Assembly: GCF_000189775.2 (NCBI RefSeq)
Contig: NC_015555.1
Coordinates: 631,001 to 695,000, forward strand
From: Thermoanaerobacterium xylanolyticum LX-11
Lineage (GTDB): Bacteria > Bacillota > Thermoanaerobacteria > Thermoanaerobacterales > Thermoanaerobacteraceae
Direction: 5' to 3'
Length of the DNA stretch: 64,000 nt
Shown here: piece after piece, positions 50,794 to 63,237 of the stretch
Numbering within the stretch: the first letter of the stretch is position 1
How the letters are laid out: each line of letters opens with the position of its first letter
The notes under the pieces: generated by a model
Databases searched by the model: none
The model's input: the letters and a program-made list of their open reading frames with translations, nothing else
Told to the model about the DNA's origin: nothing
Position numbers and translations under genes: made by a program

Positions 50794-52155
50794 TTGCAAA
50801 ATGTAAGCATTGGCGATATATACGAAATATACATTGACAATATGGCACATGAAGGACAGGGCGTTGGAAGGTTAGATGGAATTGCCGTTTTTGTGAAAGG
50901 TGCTTTACAAGGTGAGAAGGTCTTAGCCAAAATAGATGAAAAACACAAAAATTACTTAAATGCACATGTGGAAAAAATATTAGAGCCATCAGAAAAAAGA
51001 ATTGTGCCTAAATGCCAATATGCTGATAAATGTGGTGGCTGTACACTTCAGCATCTAACATACAGCGGACAGTTAGAATTTAAAAAACATGTAGTGGGAG
51101 AAAGCTTGAAAAGAATTGGGAAAATTGATATTGTCGTATTTGATACGATAGGCATGGCTGACCCACTGCATTATAGAGATAAGGCAGAATATCCATTAAG
51201 CATTAAAAATGGCAAGATAGAAGGAGGATTTTATGCATCTAAATCACATGAAGTGGTTGGCATTGATTCTTGTATGATTCAAAGTAGTGTCAGTGTCAAT
51301 GCAATGAAAACTGTTGTAGAGTGGGCAAACGACTATAAGATTACAGTTTACGACAAAAAAACTGGGAAAGGGTTTTTAAGGCACGTGATAACTAAAGTTG
51401 GCTTTGCAACAAAAGAAGTCATGGTTATTATTGTGGCGAATAGCAGAGATATTCCACACAAAAAAGAACTTGTAAGCCGGCTTAAAGGAAAAATTGAAAA
51501 CTTAAAAAGTGTTGTTTTAAATGTAAATAGAAGTAATGGAAAACAAGTTATGGGTAACGAAAATATTGTCATATATGGTGATGATTATATTACTGATTTT
51601 ATTGGAGATAAAAAATTTGAAATATCTCCTTTGTCGTTCTTTCAAGTAAATCCCGTTCAAACCAAAGTGTTGTATGAGAAAGCATTAGAATATGCAGATT
51701 TAAAAGGCGATGAAATTGTCTTTGACGTGTACTGCGGTATAGGCACAATATCTATATTTTTTGCAAAACATGCGCGAAAAGTGTACGGAATAGAGGTAAT
51801 ACCAGATGCTGTAGAAGATGCGAGGCAAAATGCAGCCATAAATGGAGTAAATAATGCAGAATTCATTGCTGGAAAAGCAGAAGATATCATGATAGAACTT
51901 TGTAATAAAGGTTTAAAGCCTGATGTCATAGTGTTCGATCCACCAAGGAAAGGATTAGACAAAGATGTTGTAGAAGCATCGATAAAAATGAATCCTGAAA
52001 AAATAATTTACGTCTCGTGTAACCCGACTACATTAGCAAGGGATTTGAGAATTTTTGAAGACAATGGATATAGAACAAAAAAAGTACAACCAGTTGACAT
52101 GTTTCCATACACGTATCATGTGGAGTGCGTAGTATTGATGTCACGCAATATATAG
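50794..52155 (+). CDS. rlmD: 23S rRNA (uracil-C5)-methyltransferase, RlmD/RumA type
   Basis: 453 residues. An N-terminal TRAM domain (IGDIYEIYIDNMAHEGQGVGRLDGIAVFVKGAL) is followed by the iron-sulfur cysteines (Cys74, Cys80, Cys83 in CQYADKCGGC, and one at IDSC), the SAM domain (FDVYCGIGTISIFFA) and the catalytic VSCNPTTLARDL. It makes 5-methyluridine in 23S rRNA. The start is TTG 50794 with GGAGTG 7 bases before. The last codons (after VECVVL) come from an inserted element; the original end, reading LITRA then stop, is still present at 53819-53836. Confidence 0.93.
   Translation: MQNVSIGDIYEIYIDNMAHEGQGVGRLDGIAVFVKGALQGEKVLAKIDEKHKNYLNAHVEKILEPSEKRIVPKCQYADKCGGCTLQHLTYSGQLEFKKHVVGESLKRIGKIDIVVFDTIGMADPLHYRDKAEYPLSIKNGKIEGGFYASKSHEVVGIDSCMIQSSVSVNAMKTVVEWANDYKITVYDKKTGKGFLRHVITKVGFATKEVMVIIVANSRDIPHKKELVSRLKGKIENLKSVVLNVNRSNGKQVMGNENIVIYGDDYITDFIGDKKFEISPLSFFQVNPVQTKVLYEKALEYADLKGDEIVFDVYCGIGTISIFFAKHARKVYGIEVIPDAVEDARQNAAINGVNNAEFIAGKAEDIMIELCNKGLKPDVIVFDPPRKGLDKDVVEASIKMNPEKIIYVSCNPTTLARDLRIFEDNGYRTKKVQPVDMFPYTYHVECVVLMSRNI
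52117..52139 (+). repeat. Left attachment-site repeat (attL) in rlmD
   Basis: First copy of a 23-bp direct repeat that encodes HVECVVL near the C-terminus of RlmD; the flanking bases differ from the right copy on both sides. Confidence 0.8.
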
Positions 52156-52280
52156 TGAATTGCAACAGTTATTACTCAATATATTGTGTTTTTGCACAGT
52201 TGAAGGGCAAATATAACCTACTTATCATTGGCGCTAAATTGTGATAAAATTAGGCTAAATCAAGACAAGGAGGTGGGCTG

Positions 52281-53210
52281 ATGGATTCGAAAATCTGGTA
52301 TATTCCGGCAAGGAATGACCGCTTGTAAAAGAAAGTCGGAATCTATTGCAGGGTAAGTACAAATGAAAAAGAACAGCTTTATAGCCTTGCGGCGCAGATT
52401 TCCGCTTTGACGAGAGCAGTTGCGAATGTCAGCCAATGGCGACTGGTAGATGTTTTTATCGATATTGCATCAGCGAAAGGAGAAATCCCTCGACGTGAAT
52501 TTGAGTAGTTGATTCGAGAATGCGAAGCTCACAATATCTCCGTTGTTCTCACCAAAAGCATTAGCAGATTTGGCAGGGATACTGTAGAGACTTTATCAGC
52601 AATCAACAAGCTGAAGGCAGCCGGTGTCAGGATTATTTTTGAACAAGAAAACCTGGACACTGATGAAGTCGACAGCAATCTTATGATTTCAGTGATGGAA
52701 TCCTTGGCTCAGGCTGAAAATGAAAGCCGAAGCGAGAATATTCGTATGGGACTTGCCATGAGAGCGGCAAACGGTACATCCGGACTTTACAAAAGAAAGC
52801 TTTACGGCTATACAAAGAATAAAGACGGAGAACTTGTAATTGACGATGAACAGGCTAAGGTGGTACGGGATATATTCCGTTGGTATCTTGATGGTGACAG
52901 TGTGCTTGGTATAATAAAGAAACTATCAGATGCAGGTATTCCTTCCCCTGCTGGTAAAGGAACGTGGAGCAAGCGCTCTATAGAGAAGATGCTTGAAAAT
53001 GAGAAGTACACAGGTACGGTCACGTTTTTGGACTCTGCAACGCAGGAATATAAGTATCAGATAAAAGAATGCCATCCGCCGATTATAAAGCAGAGCGAGT
53101 TCGTGGCTGTTCAGGAAGAAAAGAAAAAGCGAAGCAATATCGTCACAGATGATGACGGTACGCATCGCAGCAGTAAGAAATATAGTTCGAAGAAGAAAAA
53201 GGAATTCTAA
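52281..53210 (+). pseudogene. Large serine recombinase, nonsense-mutated and C-terminally short
   Basis: One reading frame from ATG 52281 (after AAGGAGGTGG) shows a resolvase catalytic domain (KKVGIYCRVSTNEKEQL with the catalytic Ser; TKSISRFGRDTVETLSAINKLKAAGVRI; ENESRSENIRMGL) and a recombinase domain (KLYGYTKNKDGELVIDDEQAKVVRDIFRWYLDG; GKGTWSKRSIEKMLENEKYTG). Two in-frame stops interrupt it: TAA at 52326-52328 (codon 16) and TAG at 52506-52508 (codon 76). It ends in a Lys-rich tail at 53210 with no zinc ribbon or coiled coil, so it is also short (about 310 codons against about 500). A product starting after the second stop would lack the catalytic serine. Confidence 0.9.
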
Positions 53211-53224
53211 TTTGTGGAGGAATT

Positions 53225-53600
53225 ATGAAACGAGAATATGGTATTGCAAGGTGCGGACTTGCCTGTTGTTTGTGTTCTGAAAACAAAACGTGTCATGGAT
53301 GCAATTCAGGGGAGTGCCCTGATAAAGATTGGTGTGAAAATAGAAAATGCTTGATAAAGAAGTTTTATGAACATTGTTTTAATTGTGGAGAAGATTGTCG
53401 AAAGGGTCTTTTGACAAAAATAAAGCCTTACGGATTCACTCTATTTGCAAAGAGATACGGTCAGGAAATGCTTTTAGATTGCCTTGAGCGCAATGAAAAG
53501 CTTGGTATTGTTTATCATCGTGAGGGCATTAATGGGAGATTACGATGATTTTGATGATGTTGAAAAGTTTCTTTGTTTTATAAAAACAGGCAAAAGATAA
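53225..53600 (+). pseudogene. DUF3795 cysteine-rich protein, frameshifted
   Basis: The first 107 codons (ATG 53225, GTGGAGG before it) give a DUF3795 protein with many cysteines (ARCGLACCLCSENKTCHGCNSGECPDKDWC; CFNCGEDCRKG). At 53535-53540 a GGG run shifts the frame and the protein stops at 53548. Reading one base over restores GDYDDFDDVEKFLCFIKTGKR up to a TAA at 53598-53600, the usual end of the family. So one extra G probably broke the gene. It is cargo of the element in rlmD; the function of the family is not known. Confidence 0.75.
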
Positions 53601-53634
53601 AATCCCAGTTTGATTGATACGATGCTAAGAATAT

Positions 53635-53650
53635 CATTAGTGCACTAATG
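53635..53650. repeat. 16-bp perfect palindrome
   Basis: CATTAGTGCACTAATG, fully symmetric, in non-coding DNA just inside the right end of the element in rlmD. No T run follows. Confidence 0.7.
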
Positions 53651-53800
53651 TGACAAAGCCATTTAGTGATAGAAAATACAAATAGCCTACTTATGTGAGA
53701 TGACGACTTGGATGCCGGCTTTTTGAATAGCAAAGAAAAAGCCTTTAAAATCAAGCGTTTTCGTTGATTTTGGACATGTTCCCCAAATAACCTAAAAATC

Positions 53801-53823
53801 ACATGTGGAGTGCGTAGTATTGA
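53801..53823 (+). repeat. Right attachment-site repeat (attR) with original rlmD end
   Basis: Second copy of the 23-bp repeat. Read in the rlmD frame it continues LITRA and a TAG at 53834-53836, a plausible native C-terminus. Confidence 0.8.
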
Positions 53824-53836
53824 TAACGAGGGCTTA

Positions 53837-54187
53837 GAAGGAGTAGGTATGGAAAGCCTTTATATAAGCCTTTTCTGTAATTATGAGGTTGAAATCTGAA
53901 GTGTGAAATACTTGATTTTTGGCTTAGTGGGAACATATCGAAACAAGCTTTTAACCTTGTGACAGAGCGATTTAGATGTCGGTGGTTCATGAGTGGTCAA
54001 TTTTGATGTTTTTCTGATTCTTTAAGGGTTGAGAGAGCAGGTTGGATGTTAGTAAAAACATGCCGCTATTGCAGGGATAAACAGAAATTTATAGTACAGA
54101 TTATATAATATCAGTCACAATGTCTAAAAAGCAGTCCACTTTTTTATTAAAATAAGTAAACTGGTTTTTAATTTATTAGATGAACAT
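53837..54187. other. 351 bp without a recognisable gene
   Basis: Between the old rlmD end and the HXXEE gene. A short frame near 54048-54111 (MLVKTCRYCRDKQKF) has a CxxC but no ribosome site. I see no conserved feature. Confidence 0.5.
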
Positions 54188-54841
54188 CTACTTAGTCAGT
54201 CTAGCCATTCTTTCCTTTACATGGAATCGTTCCATTTCAACCTTATCGAAAACGTATTTTGTATTCTTGTTCGGCATTATCTTGTATGTCAGACCATTGA
54301 CTACAATTGCAGCAGTTGCCAACATATAAACAATTGCTAAAATCCAATCCGTTCCACTGACTAATCCGTTTGAAACAATGTAGTAAATGTAATAGATTCC
54401 GATAGGATAATGTAAAAACACAACAGCACCTAAACCGGGATTATAGATGGATTTCATTTTTATATTGGTCATTATTCCATGAACCATAAATTGCATAAAA
54501 CCAAACAACATTGGCATAAGTCCGAGCCAAATAACTTTTGGGAAGAAAACGGGAAGTAAGTAGCAAGTATAAGTTACGATTACATTTGTTAACATAGCAG
54601 AAAGTTGATTCAGTGGATACCTGTCTGGAATATCACTGCTTTGCAGAACGATATTTATGATAGCTGGCTCTCCACCCGGAAATCCATATTCCTCAAACTG
54701 ATGAAACAGAATTGCTATAAAGCTCATCAATTGCAGACGGACTAGCATATCCAGTTGCCCCCAAAATACTGCGAGATATGCAATTGTTCCTACCATAATC
54801 ACTGCGCCTATGTTATACCAATGTCTACATAATAATCTCAT
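54188..54841 (-). CDS. HXXEE-domain membrane protein
   Basis: About 217 residues. The HXXEE motif that names the family is present (LFHQFEEYGFPGGEPAIIN), and six or so hydrophobic helices follow (IGAVIMVGTIAYLAVFWGQL; LMPMLFGFMQFMVHG; ILAIVYMLATAAIVVNGL). The start is ATG at 54839-54841 with GGAGGA 7 bases before on the minus strand; the longer frame to 54919 runs into the promoter. It is divergent from a TetR-type gene, so probably its target. The activity is unknown; the conserved His and Glu residues suggest a membrane enzyme or metal site. Confidence 0.85.
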   Translation of the reverse strand: MRLLCRHWYNIGAVIMVGTIAYLAVFWGQLDMLVRLQLMSFIAILFHQFEEYGFPGGEPAIINIVLQSSDIPDRYPLNQLSAMLTNVIVTYTCYLLPVFFPKVIWLGLMPMLFGFMQFMVHGIMTNIKMKSIYNPGLGAVVFLHYPIGIYYIYYIVSNGLVSGTDWILAIVYMLATAAIVVNGLTYKIMPNKNTKYVFDKVEMERFHVKERMARLTK

Positions 54842-54859
54842 AATAATTTCCTCCTTTAC

Positions 54860-54945
54860 ATCATCCAACATTGTGTTGTATAATTTAATTATACTACGTG
54901 TTAATGATTCATCAACCATCAGATATGTTCAAATTGTTGGATGAT
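54860..54945. promoter_or_regulatory. Divergent promoter region with paired operators
   Basis: ATCATCCAACA (54860-54870) and its exact inverse TGTTGGATGAT (54935-54945). One lies just after a minus-strand TATAAT (54888-54893) for the HXXEE gene, the other abuts the plus-strand TATAAT (54945-54950) for the TetR gene. They are probably the sites of the TetR-type regulator. Confidence 0.6.
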
Positions 54946-54964
54946 ATAATAAGAGGGGATGTAC

Positions 54965-55519
54965 ATGAAAAAACAACCAGAAGTAACAGAACGTACAAAA
55001 GCCATATTGATGGATTCTTTTTGGCAGTTATATCGTGAAAACGACATAAGAAAAATTACTATAAAAGATATTACTGAAAAAGCTGGCTACAATAGAAGCA
55101 CATTTTATCAGTATTTTGTCGATGTCTATGATTTACTCAATCAGTTGGAGGATTCACTAATTCAATATATATCTGATAATGTTAAGCTAAGTCTTGTTTC
55201 ATCGATTGGAGATGATTTTATTGAACAGATGGCACAACTGTATGATTTGAAAGGTGAATATATTAGTGTGTTGTTAAGCAAAAACGGTGATCCTATGTTT
55301 GCTGAAAAATTAAAATCTGCTCTTAGTTTCATTATTTTTGACAAACTTGAAATAAAAAGAGATAAGGCTCATATGGATTTGATGTTTGAATTTGCAATAT
55401 CGGGAATGCTGTCAGCTATCACAAAGTGGTACAATCTAGGCAAGCCTATTCCTTCAAAAGAAATGGTTGTCATGTTGCGTTCTATGTTATTCAAAGGAGC
55501 TTCTTCCTACATAAGGTAG
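54965..55519 (+). CDS. TetR/AcrR-family transcriptional regulator
   Basis: 184 residues. The N-terminal helix-turn-helix is of TetR type (TERTKAILMDSFWQLYRENDIRKITIKDITEKAGYNRSTFYQYFVDVYDLL). The C-terminal ligand domain is not diagnostic (QMAQLYDLKGEYISVLLSKNGDP; GMLSAITKWYNLGKPIPSKE). The start ATG 54965 follows AGAGGGGA; ATG 54959 is too close. It faces the HXXEE gene across shared operator-like repeats. Confidence 0.9.
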   Translation: MKKQPEVTERTKAILMDSFWQLYRENDIRKITIKDITEKAGYNRSTFYQYFVDVYDLLNQLEDSLIQYISDNVKLSLVSSIGDDFIEQMAQLYDLKGEYISVLLSKNGDPMFAEKLKSALSFIIFDKLEIKRDKAHMDLMFEFAISGMLSAITKWYNLGKPIPSKEMVVMLRSMLFKGASSYIR

Positions 55520-55732: not shown

Positions 55733-56852
55733 TTACCAACATAACCTTTTAATAATGGCTGATTTATTCTTGGAAATAGTATTTATAAATCGTTTTATAA
55801 CATTACTAATTTCCTTTCTAGTTTTATAAAAAGCATTATATATTGACAGTTTCCTTCAACCATTTCCACAATCCTTCAATCCTATTAAGATTTGGTGAGT
55901 AAGGCGGTAAAAAGATAAATTCCAAATTTGCATTTGTGCTTCTCTTTGAATTCTTTCAGCAGTTTGGCATAATGAATTCTCCCATTGTCCAAAATCATCT
56001 TTATTTTCTTGCCAGGATAGGCTTCCACAACCTTTCTTAAAAAGTCCAAAAATGATTGTGCATCCAACGTCTCAGTTTCGGAATATATAATATCCCCTGT
56101 AAAATAGTCAATAACTCCAAATATTCCGACTCCTATGTGATGCCCATATGTCTTAACAATTCTCTGATGCCCTTTTAAAAACCAAGTAGCTGTAATGGCT
56201 TGATAATCCCTGATTTTACATTCATCTTCGAAAAGAATTACTTCATCTCTTTTAATGTTTTTTCATATCTTCAAACTTTTCCTCAAATTTTTTCTGCTCT
56301 TCTTCGTCTGCTTTCATCAAAACATATGTGGGCCTGGTATAAGTAAAACCCATCCGCTTCATCAATCGTCTAATGCTTGAGGCTTCAATATTAATATTAT
56401 AAACATCTTTTACATATTGAGCGATAATTCTTGAATTCCAGTTTACATTTACAGCATACCCGATTTCACTTGGTGTCTTTAAAATTACTTCCTTTAACTC
56501 CTCCTGAATGTCAGGAATGATTTTCGGAATACGTCCAGGTGCCTTCCCTATGGTCAGCAATTCCTCCAAGCCGCCTTCATTGTATTTTTTCACATATTCT
56601 CCAAAGGTTTGATTGTTAAACCCAAGTATTTTTGCTATCTCCAGCCGATTCTTCCCTCGAAATGCAAGAATAATAACATTAATACGGTCTATTTTCCTTG
56701 AATCTTTAAGTCCTCTTTTGAATTTCTTTAAACTCTTTATGGTCTGCCCATGTTCATTTTTAATAATACTTTTCTTTTTCATTTGTAAATACTCCCCGAT
56801 ATATATTTTCTCTTATATATATCGAACATTTCGGAATTATTCTACACTCATA
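55709..56852 (-). mobile_element. IS630-type insertion sequence, decayed
   Basis: Imperfect terminal inverted repeats at 55714-55733 (GTGTAATATAATTTCGAAAT) and 56828-56847 (reverse complement GTGTAGAATAATTCCGAAAT), 17 of 20 identical. TA dinucleotides lie just outside, as expected for IS630/Tc1 targets, but exact ends are uncertain by a few bases. It holds one frameshifted transposase gene. Confidence 0.7.
55836..56782 (-). pseudogene. IS630-family transposase with two frameshifts
   Basis: ATG at 56782. The first frame (to 56252) has the helix-turn-helix part (INVIILAFRGKNRLEIAKILGFNNQTFGEYVKKYNEGGLEELL; IRRLMKRMGFTYTRPTYV). At an A6 run near 56258-56263 the frame shifts by one; then NIKRDEVILFEDECK ... 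LDNGRIHYAKLL gives the first catalytic acids of the DDE domain. At a TTT near 55936-55940 it shifts again to EFIFLPPYSPNLNRIEGLWKWLKE with the last catalytic Glu and the stop at 55836-55838. Both shifts fit single-base gains in homopolymers. Confidence 0.85.
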
Positions 56853-57052: not shown

Positions 57053-58345
57053 TTAAGCAGCTTTATGAATGTTCTGATATTGTTGTTTGTGTTCATCAGG
57101 TGTCTTTAATACAAAAGGCTTATTATCCCTTAGAACAGCAAATACAATATCTGAAATCTTGTGCATAACAGCTCCAAGAGCTACTTTTTTAGGTTTTGAT
57201 TCCTTCTTTTTCTGGTAATAATCATAAAGTACAGGATTTATTGCTATACCATTTCTTTTAACTCTTACAGAAGCTAAAGCAATGGCATAGAGAACACGCC
57301 TAGCAATTTTAGAACCTCTTTTGGACATTTTATTGTCATTACCTTTAAAATGTCCAGATTCATTAACAGAAGGATCTACACCAAAATATGCAAAAAGCTG
57401 CTTAGGTTTTCTAAATGCTGAAAAATCGCCTATTTCACACATAAGAGTAACCGCTGAGAGAAAACCAACACCAGGTATAGAATCAAGGTAATAAATTTGC
57501 TGTACAAATTTTTCAGACTTATTTTCATCCACAAATGCCTTGATTTCAGATAATACCAGGTTAATCTTTTTATCAAATTCTTCTATGAAATAAATATACA
57601 CTTTTAGTATGTCATAGACAGAAGGTAAATTATACCTAAAATTCAAAGCATTTTTAGCAGCTTTAAATAACTTATCATACTTAGCTTTAGCATAATTCAA
57701 GCCTTTTCTTGATGACGTTGAAATAAGTTTAATTATTTCATCAGGCTGAGCATTAATGACATCTTCTGGTGTTAGGAAATTTTTCAACAGAGAGATAGCT
57801 GTGATTCCAGTAATATCAGAGAAAACCTTGCAGAAACCAGGGAAAACAATATGCAATTGAGCTTTAAGTTTATTCACATAAGAAGTACGATTATCGACAA
57901 GGCTATAGTACTCTCTGCATAAACATCTAAGATTTAAAATTAACTCAGCAGGCATAACAGAAACCTTAGTGTCAGGCGAATAACCAATAACAGCAATACG
58001 TTTTGCATCAAGTCTATCATTCTTCACTTTTCTTATACCAATATTTTTGTTAGAATTAGTAATGAGAGGATTAATAACAAAAACCTCAAATCCTAATTCT
58101 TTTAGGTGGCAGAAGAGTGGGAAATGGTAGATTCCCGTAGACTCCAGAAATATCTTAGATTTCATGGAGAAATGCTCTTCTGCCTTTTTAATTGTCAGAA
58201 CAGCATTTTTAAGGGAATCAGCATTATCGTGTTCAACCTTAAAAGGCTTTTTAAACTCCCTTCCATCGGGTGACAAGATGCAAAACCAGCTAAAATCAGC
58301 AGCGACATCAATACCAACACTAATATAATTAGGCAAAAAACTCAT
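57053..58345 (-). CDS. IS110-family transposase
   Basis: 430 residues, full length. The N-terminal RuvC-like DEDD domain begins YISVGIDVAADFSWFCILSPDG (first Asp), with IFLESTGIYHFPLFCHL and VKNDRLDAKRIAVIGYSP. The C-terminal Tnp domain has DSIPGVGFLSAVTLMCEIGDFSAFRKPKQLFAYFGVDPSVNESG then KGNDNKMSKRGSKIARRVLYAIA, with the conserved Ser. IS110 enzymes use a non-coding bridge RNA from the element to choose donor and target. AGGAGTTG precedes the ATG. It looks intact and may still be active. Confidence 0.93.
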   Translation of the reverse strand: MSFLPNYISVGIDVAADFSWFCILSPDGREFKKPFKVEHDNADSLKNAVLTIKKAEEHFSMKSKIFLESTGIYHFPLFCHLKELGFEVFVINPLITNSNKNIGIRKVKNDRLDAKRIAVIGYSPDTKVSVMPAELILNLRCLCREYYSLVDNRTSYVNKLKAQLHIVFPGFCKVFSDITGITAISLLKNFLTPEDVINAQPDEIIKLISTSSRKGLNYAKAKYDKLFKAAKNALNFRYNLPSVYDILKVYIYFIEEFDKKINLVLSEIKAFVDENKSEKFVQQIYYLDSIPGVGFLSAVTLMCEIGDFSAFRKPKQLFAYFGVDPSVNESGHFKGNDNKMSKRGSKIARRVLYAIALASVRVKRNGIAINPVLYDYYQKKKESKPKKVALGAVMHKISDIVFAVLRDNKPFVLKTPDEHKQQYQNIHKAA

Positions 58346-58816: not shown

Positions 58817-59340
58817 ATGAAAATTGGCGATAATGTTGTGATGTTGGAAATTTCATAGGAAATTTATCAGATATGGTAAAAGAATTGCAAGGTATAGCAA
58901 AGGTTATGGCACATGTCGATGAGAAACCATACATTGAAGGTGACTTGAAACCATTAAAATTAGCTCAGCTTGAATCAAAATTGAATGCATTACCTGACGA
59001 AATGAAAGGAATATTCAATAAGATGAAGTCATCATTTGATAAAAATAGGACAAAAGTCGATGTGGCATTAAATGATGGCGAAGAACTGCCATTTTGTGGT
59101 GGTATTGATGTAATACATACCCCTGGTCATACATTAGGGCACGTTTGCCTTTATTTAAAAAAGAACAAAGTGTTGATTACAGGCGACATGCTAAACATTA
59201 AAGACGGAAAACTTGTCCCTTCATCAAAGGATATTAATTTTGACGATGACATGAATCTAAAGTCGATTGAAAAGATAGGCGGATATGATGTTAAGTATGT
59301 AATTTGCTACCACAGCGGCCTTTATAAAAAGGAATGTTAA
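58817..59340 (+). pseudogene. Metallo-beta-lactamase-fold hydrolase with internal deletion
   Basis: The native start MKIGDNVVMLEIS (ATG 58817, AGGAGGAG before it) runs into a TAG at 58856-58858. One base out of frame the C-terminal part begins at IGNLSDMVKELQGIAKVMAHVDEKPYIEGD and goes on through HTPGHTLGHVCLY and ITGDML to the stop at 59340. About 60 codons between, which should carry the HxHxDH metal-binding motif, are gone. The remaining 155-codon frame (from 58873) lacks these ligands and cannot be an active enzyme. GGAAATTT occurs on both sides of the junction. Confidence 0.85.
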
Positions 59341-59531
59341 TGTATGATAGTAAGCGTTAGAAGGATAGATGTGTAAAAATCTTTCTGGTATGATCAACAA
59401 TCTTCATATTGGCAGTTACATTCATACTATTTTTAGTGTTTATTTCTATGAAAACTACAGTAAAAACATAGTAAATACTATAGATGAGAAAAATTGATAA
59501 CAAATATTACCATAAAATAGATACACTACGC

Positions 59532-60592: not shown

Positions 60593-62341
60593 GACCTCAC
60601 CATCCTCCCAAGAGGATGAGTTAGAAAATAAATAGGAAGGTGAGGTCTTATGAAAATAATTCAACATACACTTCAAAAATTCCTGCTTGTTGTAGAAAAA
60701 ATTATTGGATTACTTGATGGAAAATATACCTATTTGGAATTTGAAGAAGAACTTAAAAAAATTCTAAATGAATTAGGAAAAGAGATTTGTGCAGATGTAC
60801 TTCATGAACTTGATCAAAGCATATATAAAGATAAATACAAAAGGAAAAACTGGGTGGTAGTCCAAAAAGATTGTGAAAGGACAATAACAACTGCATTTGG
60901 AGATATCACATACAAAAGACGGTACTATAAAAACAAAGAAACAGGAGAGAAGGCATATCTCGTAGATAAAGCTGCTGGCATCCAAAAATATGAAAGAATA
61001 GATGCTGAGCTTAAAGCTGATATAACGGATCTTTCTACAATACTCTCATATCAAAAAACCACTCAGGAACTTAAAAGAAATGGAGCTAACTGCAATGTAA
61101 GCCGGCAAACAGTAATGAACACATTAAGAAAAATAGACAACCTTCAAACATATGAAAAGCCAAAGACTAAAAAAGAAATAGAAACTTTATACATAGAAGC
61201 TGATGAAGATCATATACATCTTCAAAACGGCAAACCAGACATTGTAAAATTAATATACGTACATGAAGGAAAACAAACAATAACAAAAGGCAGAAATGAA
61301 CTAAAAAATGCCGTATACTTTTCCGGTGTATACGAAGGAGATAAAGTAGAAGAGTTATGGAAAGAAGTATGGGAGTACATTGCAAGCACATATAACGAAG
61401 ACAAAATAAAACGCATATACGTATCTGGAGATGGAGCGGAATGGATAAAATTCGGAGTAAAATATCTGCCTAACGCCGTATACGTATTAGACCTATTTCA
61501 TCTACAAAAATACATAACAGCTGCAATAAAAGAAGATAAAAAAACAAAGAGAGAATTATGGAAAGCCATATTTAAAGCAGATAAACAAAAAGTCAATGAG
61601 CTTTTAACACAAAAATACAAAGAACTAGAATTAAACGGAACAGAAAATCCCGTAACGAAGTGCCAAACATATATAAATAACAATTGGGATGGAATAAATT
61701 CATACAGCCTTTACAAAAAAGAAATAACAGGATGCAGTGCAGAAAGTCATGTAAGTCATGTACTTTCAGAGAGACTATCAAGCAGACCAATTTCATGGAG
61801 CAAGGTTGGAGCTCACAAAATGGCAAAATTAAGAGCAATAAAAGCAAGCGGCATATCGCTGAAAGGTGTCGTATTAAAACAGCAATATGAAAGCTTAAAG
61901 CCAATAGAAATACCAAAGCAAACAGTGTATAAAGCGAAACAACAACTAAAGAAAATAAAATCAACTTATGAAAACATAATAAGCTTGCCAATATTGCAAA
62001 ATAAAAAAACATTAACAAGTCAGGCTATAAAATCATTACTATTGAGAAATGCCATTTAAAAGTATGCATATATATTGAAGATTGTAGTTTTAGTTATTAT
62101 TATGGGGAGCTTATTTGGGTTACCTATCACATGTAAAATTCATGAATAAATAGCATTGATATACATGATGGCTTCTTTGAAGAGCGTGAGAATCTGAGAA
62201 TGAGTGAGATATTAAAAGAAAATCAAAGATTATAGAGTGAGTGGCGATTTTATGCTATCAAGAAGTTAAGAGACTTCAACACTAAAAACTTTTCTTAAAA
62301 TCCAGCTATCAATACTCATCCTTAGAGTGATAGTGAGGTCT
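60593..62341 (+). mobile_element. ISLre2-family insertion sequence
   Basis: The ends are related inverted repeats starting GACCTCAC (60593 onward, and the reverse complement ending at about 62340), each followed by a GGATGAG block. The element is about 1.75 kb with one intact transposase gene. I could not find a clear target duplication. Confidence 0.7.
60650..62059 (+). CDS. ISLre2-family transposase
   Basis: 469 residues, intact. Typical features are the N-terminal KRKNWVVVQKDCERTITTAFGDITYKRRYYKNKETGEKAYLVD, the catalytic-region YIEADEDHIHLQ, the block IYVSGDGAEWIKFGVKYLPNAVYVLDLFHLQKYI and the C-terminal E in SAESHVSHVLSERLSSRPISWSKVGAHKMAKLRA. ATG 60650 directly follows an 11-bp inverted repeat (60591-60601 with 60639-60649) whose right arm carries the AAGGTGAGG ribosome site, so folding may limit translation. 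Confidence 0.92.
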   Translation: MKIIQHTLQKFLLVVEKIIGLLDGKYTYLEFEEELKKILNELGKEICADVLHELDQSIYKDKYKRKNWVVVQKDCERTITTAFGDITYKRRYYKNKETGEKAYLVDKAAGIQKYERIDAELKADITDLSTILSYQKTTQELKRNGANCNVSRQTVMNTLRKIDNLQTYEKPKTKKEIETLYIEADEDHIHLQNGKPDIVKLIYVHEGKQTITKGRNELKNAVYFSGVYEGDKVEELWKEVWEYIASTYNEDKIKRIYVSGDGAEWIKFGVKYLPNAVYVLDLFHLQKYITAAIKEDKKTKRELWKAIFKADKQKVNELLTQKYKELELNGTENPVTKCQTYINNNWDGINSYSLYKKEITGCSAESHVSHVLSERLSSRPISWSKVGAHKMAKLRAIKASGISLKGVVLKQQYESLKPIEIPKQTVYKAKQQLKKIKSTYENIISLPILQNKKTLTSQAIKSLLLRNAI

Positions 62342-62460: not shown

Positions 62461-63237
62461 TTGAAAAAAAGGTTGATAATATCTCTAATTCTTGTCACTA
62501 TTATGTCAATCGCGCTAAGCGGTTGTTCGAAACAGTCTACGTTAAGCAGAGTGAAAAAATCAGGAGTTATCGTCATGGGTACCAGTGCTGATTTTCCACC
62601 GTTTGAATTTCACAAAGTTGTCAATGGTAAAGATACTATAATGGGCTTTGATGTAGATTTAGCCAATGCAATTGCCAAAAAGTTAGGTGTAAAACTGGAG
62701 ATAAAAGATATGGACTTTACAGGGCTTATTCCAGCTCTTCAAAGTGGCCAGATTGACATGGCTATCGCAGGTATGAATGCCACACCAGAGAGGAAGAAAA
62801 ATGTTGACTTTTCTGATGAGTATTATAATTCTGAGCAGGTTTTAGTCGTGAAAAATTCCAGCAATATAAATAATTTAAATGACTTGAAAGGCAAGACGGT
62901 AGCTGTACAGCTTGGCACTACGTCTGATGATGCAGCTAAGAAGATAAAGGGAATAGACATAAAAGAGCTAAATAGATTAGGTGATGCATTTTTGTCATTG
63001 GAAAATGGCAGAGTAGACGCTATATTGATGGAAAGCACAATTGCGGATGCATACTTAAAAGAGTATAAAGACATGAAGATGCTTCACATTAAAGAGATAA
63101 ATGAAGCAGTGCCAGGATACTCAGTCGCAGTCGCAAAAGGAAATCAAGATCTTGTAAACCAGATAAACAGTGTAATAAAAGACCTTAAAGACAGTGGTGA
63201 ATACGAAAAAATGTTAAACAAATGGATGGGAAAATAA
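62461..63237 (+). CDS. Polar amino-acid ABC transporter, substrate-binding lipoprotein
   Basis: 258 residues with a lipobox (IALSGC, Cys22). The fold is that of family 3 solute-binding proteins (GVIVMGTSADFPPFEFHK; IMGFDVDLANAIAKKLGVKLEIKDMDFTGLIPALQSGQIDMAIAGMNATPERKKNVDFSDEYY; GKTVAVQLGTTSDDAAKK). The ligand is probably a polar amino acid such as glutamine, arginine or cystine; it cannot be fixed from sequence. The start is TTG 62461 with GGGAGGAG 6 bases before. Confidence 0.92.
   Translation: MKKRLIISLILVTIMSIALSGCSKQSTLSRVKKSGVIVMGTSADFPPFEFHKVVNGKDTIMGFDVDLANAIAKKLGVKLEIKDMDFTGLIPALQSGQIDMAIAGMNATPERKKNVDFSDEYYNSEQVLVVKNSSNINNLNDLKGKTVAVQLGTTSDDAAKKIKGIDIKELNRLGDAFLSLENGRVDAILMESTIADAYLKEYKDMKMLHIKEINEAVPGYSVAVAKGNQDLVNQINSVIKDLKDSGEYEKMLNKWMGK

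Follow-up and report, generated by a model that had tools for sequence, protein, structure and literature searches.

A compact serine recombinase element that re-encodes the end of rlmD in Thermoanaerobacterium xylanolyticum LX-11 and its probable place in a cassette-like family

The DNA analysed here (the window) is a stretch of 64,000 nucleotides from T. xylanolyticum LX-11, positions 631,001 to 695,000 of contig NC_015555.1. Its + strand encodes, at 50794-52155, an rlmD-type 23S rRNA (uracil-5)-methyltransferase with the Pfam domains TRAM and tRNA_U5-meth_tr, which aligns to the RlmCD and RumA structures. The original prediction had described a 23-bp direct repeat starting in the 3' end of this gene, and indeed we found an exact repeat, CATGTGGAGTGCGTAGTATTGAT. 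The left copy lies at 52117-52139, as predicted; the right copy lies at 53802-53824, one base away from the 53801-53823 given earlier. By an arithmetic estimate, about 1e-6 such 23-bp repeats are expected by chance per 4-kb region at this composition. In addition, when the whole 2.53-Mb genome was searched with the 17-base core of the repeat, GAGTGCGTRGTRTTGAT, just two sites were found, both in this repeat.

Both copies are on the + strand and in the reading frame of rlmD. The left copy (attL) spans the codons H-V-E-C-V-V-L plus the first two positions of the codon that follows, and the frame reads HVECVVLMSRNI followed by a stop codon, so that the present protein ends with MSRNI. From the right copy, the same frame reads HVECVVLITRA followed by a stop codon. 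The two alternative in-frame ends that had been proposed, MSRNI and LITRA, are thus both there. When we compared the rlmD ends of eight congeners, all of them were different and none was MSRNI; element-free relatives with the MSRNI end, which would have spoken against an exchange, were not seen. The last codons of rlmD, from about HVE on, are re-encoded by an inserted element, hereafter unit 1. The right copy at 53802-53824 is the attR of unit 1, carrying the displaced former rlmD end, and most likely also the attL of a second unit, as discussed below.

Unit 1 is 1,685 bp long and full length, with a conserved left end, a recombinase, one cargo gene and a conserved right end, all on the + strand. 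The segment 52140-52280 contains the remainder of the new rlmD tail and a conserved non-coding stretch up to the recombinase start, and was aligned with the left ends of relatives L102-L119. The serine recombinase pseudogene, whose presence between the repeats had been correctly predicted, lies at 52281-53210. With about 309 codons it is full length for its family and encodes Resolvase and Recombinase domains, and it contains two in-frame stops, TAA at 52326-52328 (codon 16) and TAG at 52506-52508 (codon 76). Its GC content is 43% vs 34% for the window. It is followed at 53225-53604 by a frameshifted cargo gene that by eye resembles DUF3795 proteins, with no Pfam match at E 0.01. This gene is open to 53548, and after a frameshift near 53.53 kb the next frame reads DYDDFDDVEKF and continues to about 53603; relative L165 carries a cargo gene that Pfam recognises as DUF3795. 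The conserved right end, at 53692-53801, contains AAAAAGCCTTTAAAATCAAG, GTTTTCG and TTTTGGACATGTTCCCCAAATAACCTAAAAATCA in this order and matches the right ends of L101-L109. The window copy is dead, with neither its recombinase gene nor its cargo gene left intact. We detected no ORF for a conjugation module (VirB4, relaxase, coupling protein) in the 1.7-kb interval, and the only ORFs of unit 1 above 100 aa are the recombinase and the DUF3795-like cargo, with no relaxase among them.

We then considered the recombinase family. We scanned 84,980 species genomes and obtained 80 loci with related recombinases. The closest relatives are 88-93% identical in protein and are found in Tepidibacillus, Fundicoccus, Sporosarcina, Dorea, Lachnospiraceae and further Clostridia, that is, in hosts from different classes. 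In a sample of the phylum, a close relative is present in 7 of 398 genomes, counting that of T. xylanolyticum LX-11. The recombinase is intact in 63 of 78 relatives, with a median length of 306 aa, and the gene in the window is therefore full length. These proteins of about 306 aa possess the Resolvase and Recombinase domains and lack a zinc ribbon. With intact proteins of this length, the window recombinase shares 89-93% identity. Carriage of close relatives by plasmids was also considered and rejected, all plasmid matches being distant (<60% identity).

The att motif was searched with the consensus CAYGTNGARNNNGTNGTRTTGATRWCR, free at several third codon positions, allowing at most 4 mismatches. 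It was found on both sides of the recombinase in 52 of the 80 loci and in none with shuffled sequence. The 52 two-sided units measure 1.18-5.53 kb (median 2.6 kb). Among the 70 loci with a left site, this site lies in the 3' end of an rlmD-type gene in 41, while 25 have no rlm gene despite at least 500 bp of upstream sequence and stand in tandem behind other DNA. Successive units form tandem arrays at several loci (L120, L126, L166, L171 and L175), and the region behind rlmD in G082, met in the comparison of empty sites, is a longer array. The relatives have in common the left-end motifs CAATATATTG, CCTACTTATCATT and ATTAGGCTAA and the right-end motifs GGACATGTTTCC and AAATAGCCTAA.

Unit 1 has the same architecture, that of clade I of the family. 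The distance from its attL (52117) to the recombinase start (52281) is 164 bp, compared with 163-170 bp in relatives, and its right att lies 592 bp past the recombinase stop. Its left 1.1 kb (att, left end and recombinase) shows 82-85% DNA identity to L101-L109 and its last 90-150 bp or so are 75-92% identical to relatives; the middle has no match. The relatives that share these ends, in Tepidibacillus, Fundicoccus, Lachnospiraceae and others, differ in their middles. Fixed ends and recombinase around a variable middle make up a cassette layout with swappable cargo. Where relatives combine this left module with this right end, the unit measures 1.5-2.6 kb and holds one cargo gene. Taken together, 52117-53824 very probably represents one complete, dead copy of a compact, cassette-like family of elements.

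It had been suggested instead that a large rumA ICE had inserted in rlmD and that its body had been deleted, leaving as a scar the recombinase and the ends. Indeed, rumA is a known site of ICEs, IMEs and prophages with serine integrases (PMC4701971, PMC5357655, PMC5704250), phage phi-SsuFJNP3_rum is a further example, and congeners carry 30-50-kb islands with pairs of large serine recombinases behind rlmD. The known use of this gene, which the original prediction had invoked, is documented in Streptococcus, but with a different layout: the streptococcal ICEs integrate at a site within rumA, and their attR falls in the integrase gene (PMC4701971, PMC5704250). In addition, rumA IMEs average 10 kb and ICEs 41 kb, with a relaxase or a conjugation module (Ambroset 2016, PMC4701971; Coluzzi 2017, PMC5357655), and we found neither in the window unit nor in the scanned cargo of its relatives. 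No missing body is needed when relatives with the same ends have one cargo gene in 1.5-2.6 kb, the family naturally spans 1.2-5.5 kb, and both ends and a full-length recombinase gene are present here. We therefore abandoned the idea of a reduced ICE, which we consider very unlikely.

Islands with large serine recombinases were observed behind rlmD in G001, G006, G007, G026 and G033 (L048, L049, L084, L087 and L089); in G001, G006 and G007 the large recombinases are adjacent pairs of 532 aa and, mostly, 522 aa. Behind rlmD of G039 (C7:113000-284232, L075-L083), several pairs of large serine recombinases are found together with an intact short recombinase. We also noticed that left ends reading MTNVKNK and a stop are common to one congener and other genera of the class.

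Does the incoming element displace the native gene end? To answer this at a paralogous gene, rlmCD, empty and filled sites can be compared in a neighbouring genus (g3). Five genomes (G010, G012, G014, G015 and G016) have empty rlmCD sites with the same flank after each; the gene ends with HVETVVLIERK in four of them and with HVETVVLMERK in G012. In the filled site of G018, rlmCD ends with HVECVTLMSRVDK and a stop codon, and 9 kb further on an attR reads HVETVVLIERK and a stop, after which the flank of the empty sites resumes at 94-98% identity. The native end was thus displaced to the right site upon filling. The insert of G018 is a 9-kb composite with mere fragments of the short-recombinase type, and not a clean compact unit. 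This comparison bears out, at the paralog, two earlier proposals, namely that a serine recombinase element at the 3' end swaps the last codons and that the right copy holds the displaced end.

The position of the exchange within the protein is also informative. The HVE triplet aligns with E443 of RlmCD, and E443Q chains in the PDB show HVQ there. E443 was described as the general base of RlmCD (PMC6235398). HVE is therefore the catalytic Glu motif, and the left ends provide new codons for the terminus of the enzyme, beginning at about the catalytic Glu. A stop codon follows within 25 codons in 133 of 137 att copies, mostly at 11-13 codons counted from the His inclusive. Variation among att copies falls mainly at third codon positions, a pattern partly built in, as the search consensus itself is free there. 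The hints on the crossover point disagree, G018 placing it left of base 3 of the block and L115 vs L117 right of base 6. As a separate observation, the wobble positions of the att block (L101-L180) are more variable between close left ends than the neighbouring non-coding positions, as if the block were exchanged piecemeal.

We next examined the DNA to the right of 53824, whose in-frame end the original prediction had given as the alternative end of rlmD. The segment 53802-54002 aligns with the rlmD junction of the congener G003 at 75% identity (203 bp), and the region 53802-54079 (+ strand) has motifs in common with the left ends of elements that occupy rlmD and rlmCD of other genomes. In five congeners, the variable region behind rlmD is followed by a conserved genus flank. 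In the present genome, this flank is found at C1:1919184-1929491, on the other strand and 1.24 Mb away, with its first 58 bases or so at 59308-59365 of the window. Since the flank is split between these two places, a large inversion has probably separated its parts, with a putative breakpoint near 59365, beside insertion sequences. From the similarity to G003, the shared left-end motifs and the distant genus flank, the ITRA end most likely comes from an older element. The DNA right of 53824 would then most likely be the left end of this second element (53802-54079), of another subfamily, and the right-hand end would probably not be native.

A single element followed by native host flank, with ITRA as the host's own end, would also give a right copy that is in frame and makes a proper protein end, and the similar sequence right after rlmD in G003 could be ancestral. 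We consider this improbable: motifs of the similar 200 bp recur in left ends of elements elsewhere, including at rlmCD in another genus, the genus flank of rlmD is different and lies here at C1:1.919-1.929 Mb, and three att copies are present behind the rlmD of G003 itself (L041, L042). Host flank directly after 53824 was accordingly rejected on the comparison with congeners. The ABC transporter gene at 62461 was likewise dismissed as native neighbour, being far from rlmD in all congeners.

If a second unit begins at 53802, its probable cargo is an HXXEE-domain protein (54188-54919, - strand; Pfam HXXEE), without counterpart in the compared congener regions, and a TetR-family regulator (54959-55519, + strand; Pfam). 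No third att copy was detected within 70 kb downstream, nor did we find where unit 2 ends on the right. By eye, the first unit of G003 (0.88 kb) contains a GNAT-like gene and a remnant of a recombinase C-terminus. Further right in the window, IS630-like, IS110-like and ISLre2-like transposases were recognised by eye at 55885-56782, 57053-58345 and 60650-62059; a second, identical copy of the ISLre2-like protein is encoded about 16 kb further along the genome. A fragment of a metallo-beta-lactamase-fold gene, recognised by eye at 58873-59340, has a counterpart behind rlmD in the congener G002 (57% identity) and one with 95% identity in G008.

These results suggest how such elements would move. 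Each member of the family carries one short serine recombinase (about 306 aa) and one or few cargo genes. The recombinase, presumably acting alone, most likely inserts a circular form, a presumed intermediate, at the His-Val-Glu codons in the 3' end of rlmD or rlmCD. The left end would supply the codon of the Glu, or those immediately around it, as well as the last eight to ten codons; the enzyme would stay whole, with a presumably active chimeric RlmD, and the previous end would be pushed to the right-hand site. As the new junction would again be a target, further elements could stack in front or behind and build tandem arrays. In this genome, unit 1 would have inserted in front of the older element, the left end of which begins at 53802, and would later have decayed. 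We infer that a route between cells exists as well.

Alternatively, the units could be non-autonomous and depend for their movement on paired large serine recombinases (or phage/ICE triplets) that recognise the same ends, by analogy with pseudo-SCC elements moved by Ccr. The short recombinases of Gardnerella phage AB1 and Streptococcus phage Javan105, which have 53% and 55% identity to a protein closely related to the window recombinase, are in keeping with this: the former is the third member beside two large ones and the latter adjoins a 638-aa integrase. The lack of a zinc-ribbon domain in the short recombinase, and the large pairs near L103, L106 and L118 and downstream of rlmD in congeners, point the same way. 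Yet nearly every compact unit has its own short recombinase, mostly intact (63/78), and most of the stretches examined are without large pairs. Movement by such helpers therefore seems rather unlikely to us, and we prefer the self-contained unit.

The largest cargo of 38 units was compared with PADLOC models (E below 1e-20), and 12 of the 38, as a raw count, matched anti-phage defence proteins. These were Kiwa KwaA/KwaB (L128, L159), Hachiman HamA/HamB (L152, L163), PDC-S53 (L151), PDC-S28 (L154), PDC-S60 (L138), PDC-S04 (L140), an MkoC-like protein (L174), a ZorD/DpdE-like helicase (L110), a PD-T4-6-like kinase (L142) and an OLD/GajA-like protein (L132). Other cargo comprises metallophosphoesterase, methyltransferase, NUDIX, TauE, acetyltransferase and beta-lactamase-fold proteins. 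The cargo of L143, L158 and L120 includes proteins of the chloramphenicol acetyltransferase family, the beta-lactamase family and the metallo-beta-lactamase fold.

We cautiously favour the view that these units form a Bacillota-wide cassette system, which would dock at the catalytic Glu codons of rlmD or rlmCD, re-encode the tail so as to keep the host gene whole, build tandem rows and reshuffle individual cargo genes, including known or candidate defence genes. With about the same reserve, Kiwa, Hachiman, the PDC types and the Mokosh- and ZorD-like proteins may be counted among this known or candidate defence cargo. A search of the open-access literature, subscription papers lying outside it, gave no description of compact tail-rebuilding rlmD cassettes, and the family is apparently undescribed. 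The locus would thus change from the scar of an ICE to a member of a family of self-contained gene cassettes, recognisable from the exchanged protein tail together with a short DNA motif. With the att motif, arrays of mobile cargo genes in Bacillota can be listed from sequence alone, and the cargo so listed, many defence systems or unknown genes, offers good candidates for new defence systems. The host would be strictly spared, the element bringing along the codons that surround and follow the catalytic residue of its target gene.

Compared with known systems, the compact units share with the rumA ICEs and IMEs a serine recombinase with Resolvase and Recombinase domains, the same host gene family and the exchange of a 3' gene part, with direct repeats of 2-21 bp in the rumA elements. 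They differ by their size (1.2-5.5 kb), an att at the 3' end of the gene, a rebuilt host tail and an integrase gene that is intact beside the att. The serine integrase sets of phages and ICEs in Firmicutes and Gardnerella are pairs and triplets, whereas the compact units carry the short member alone. SCC elements at rlmH of Staphylococcus likewise keep the 3' end of an rRNA methyltransferase gene functional, accrete in tandem and form cargo islands; in contrast, the compact units target rlmD and have one short recombinase each. With the Ccr equivalog models, the window protein scores 36.6-52.5 bits and its relatives at most 86 bits, for cut-offs of 700-900. Finally, a conserved recombination site, swappable single cargo genes and arrays recall integron gene cassettes, and by this analogy the system would, on balance, be the functional counterpart of integron arrays, except that the compact units have neither tyrosine integrase nor attC and each brings its own serine recombinase.
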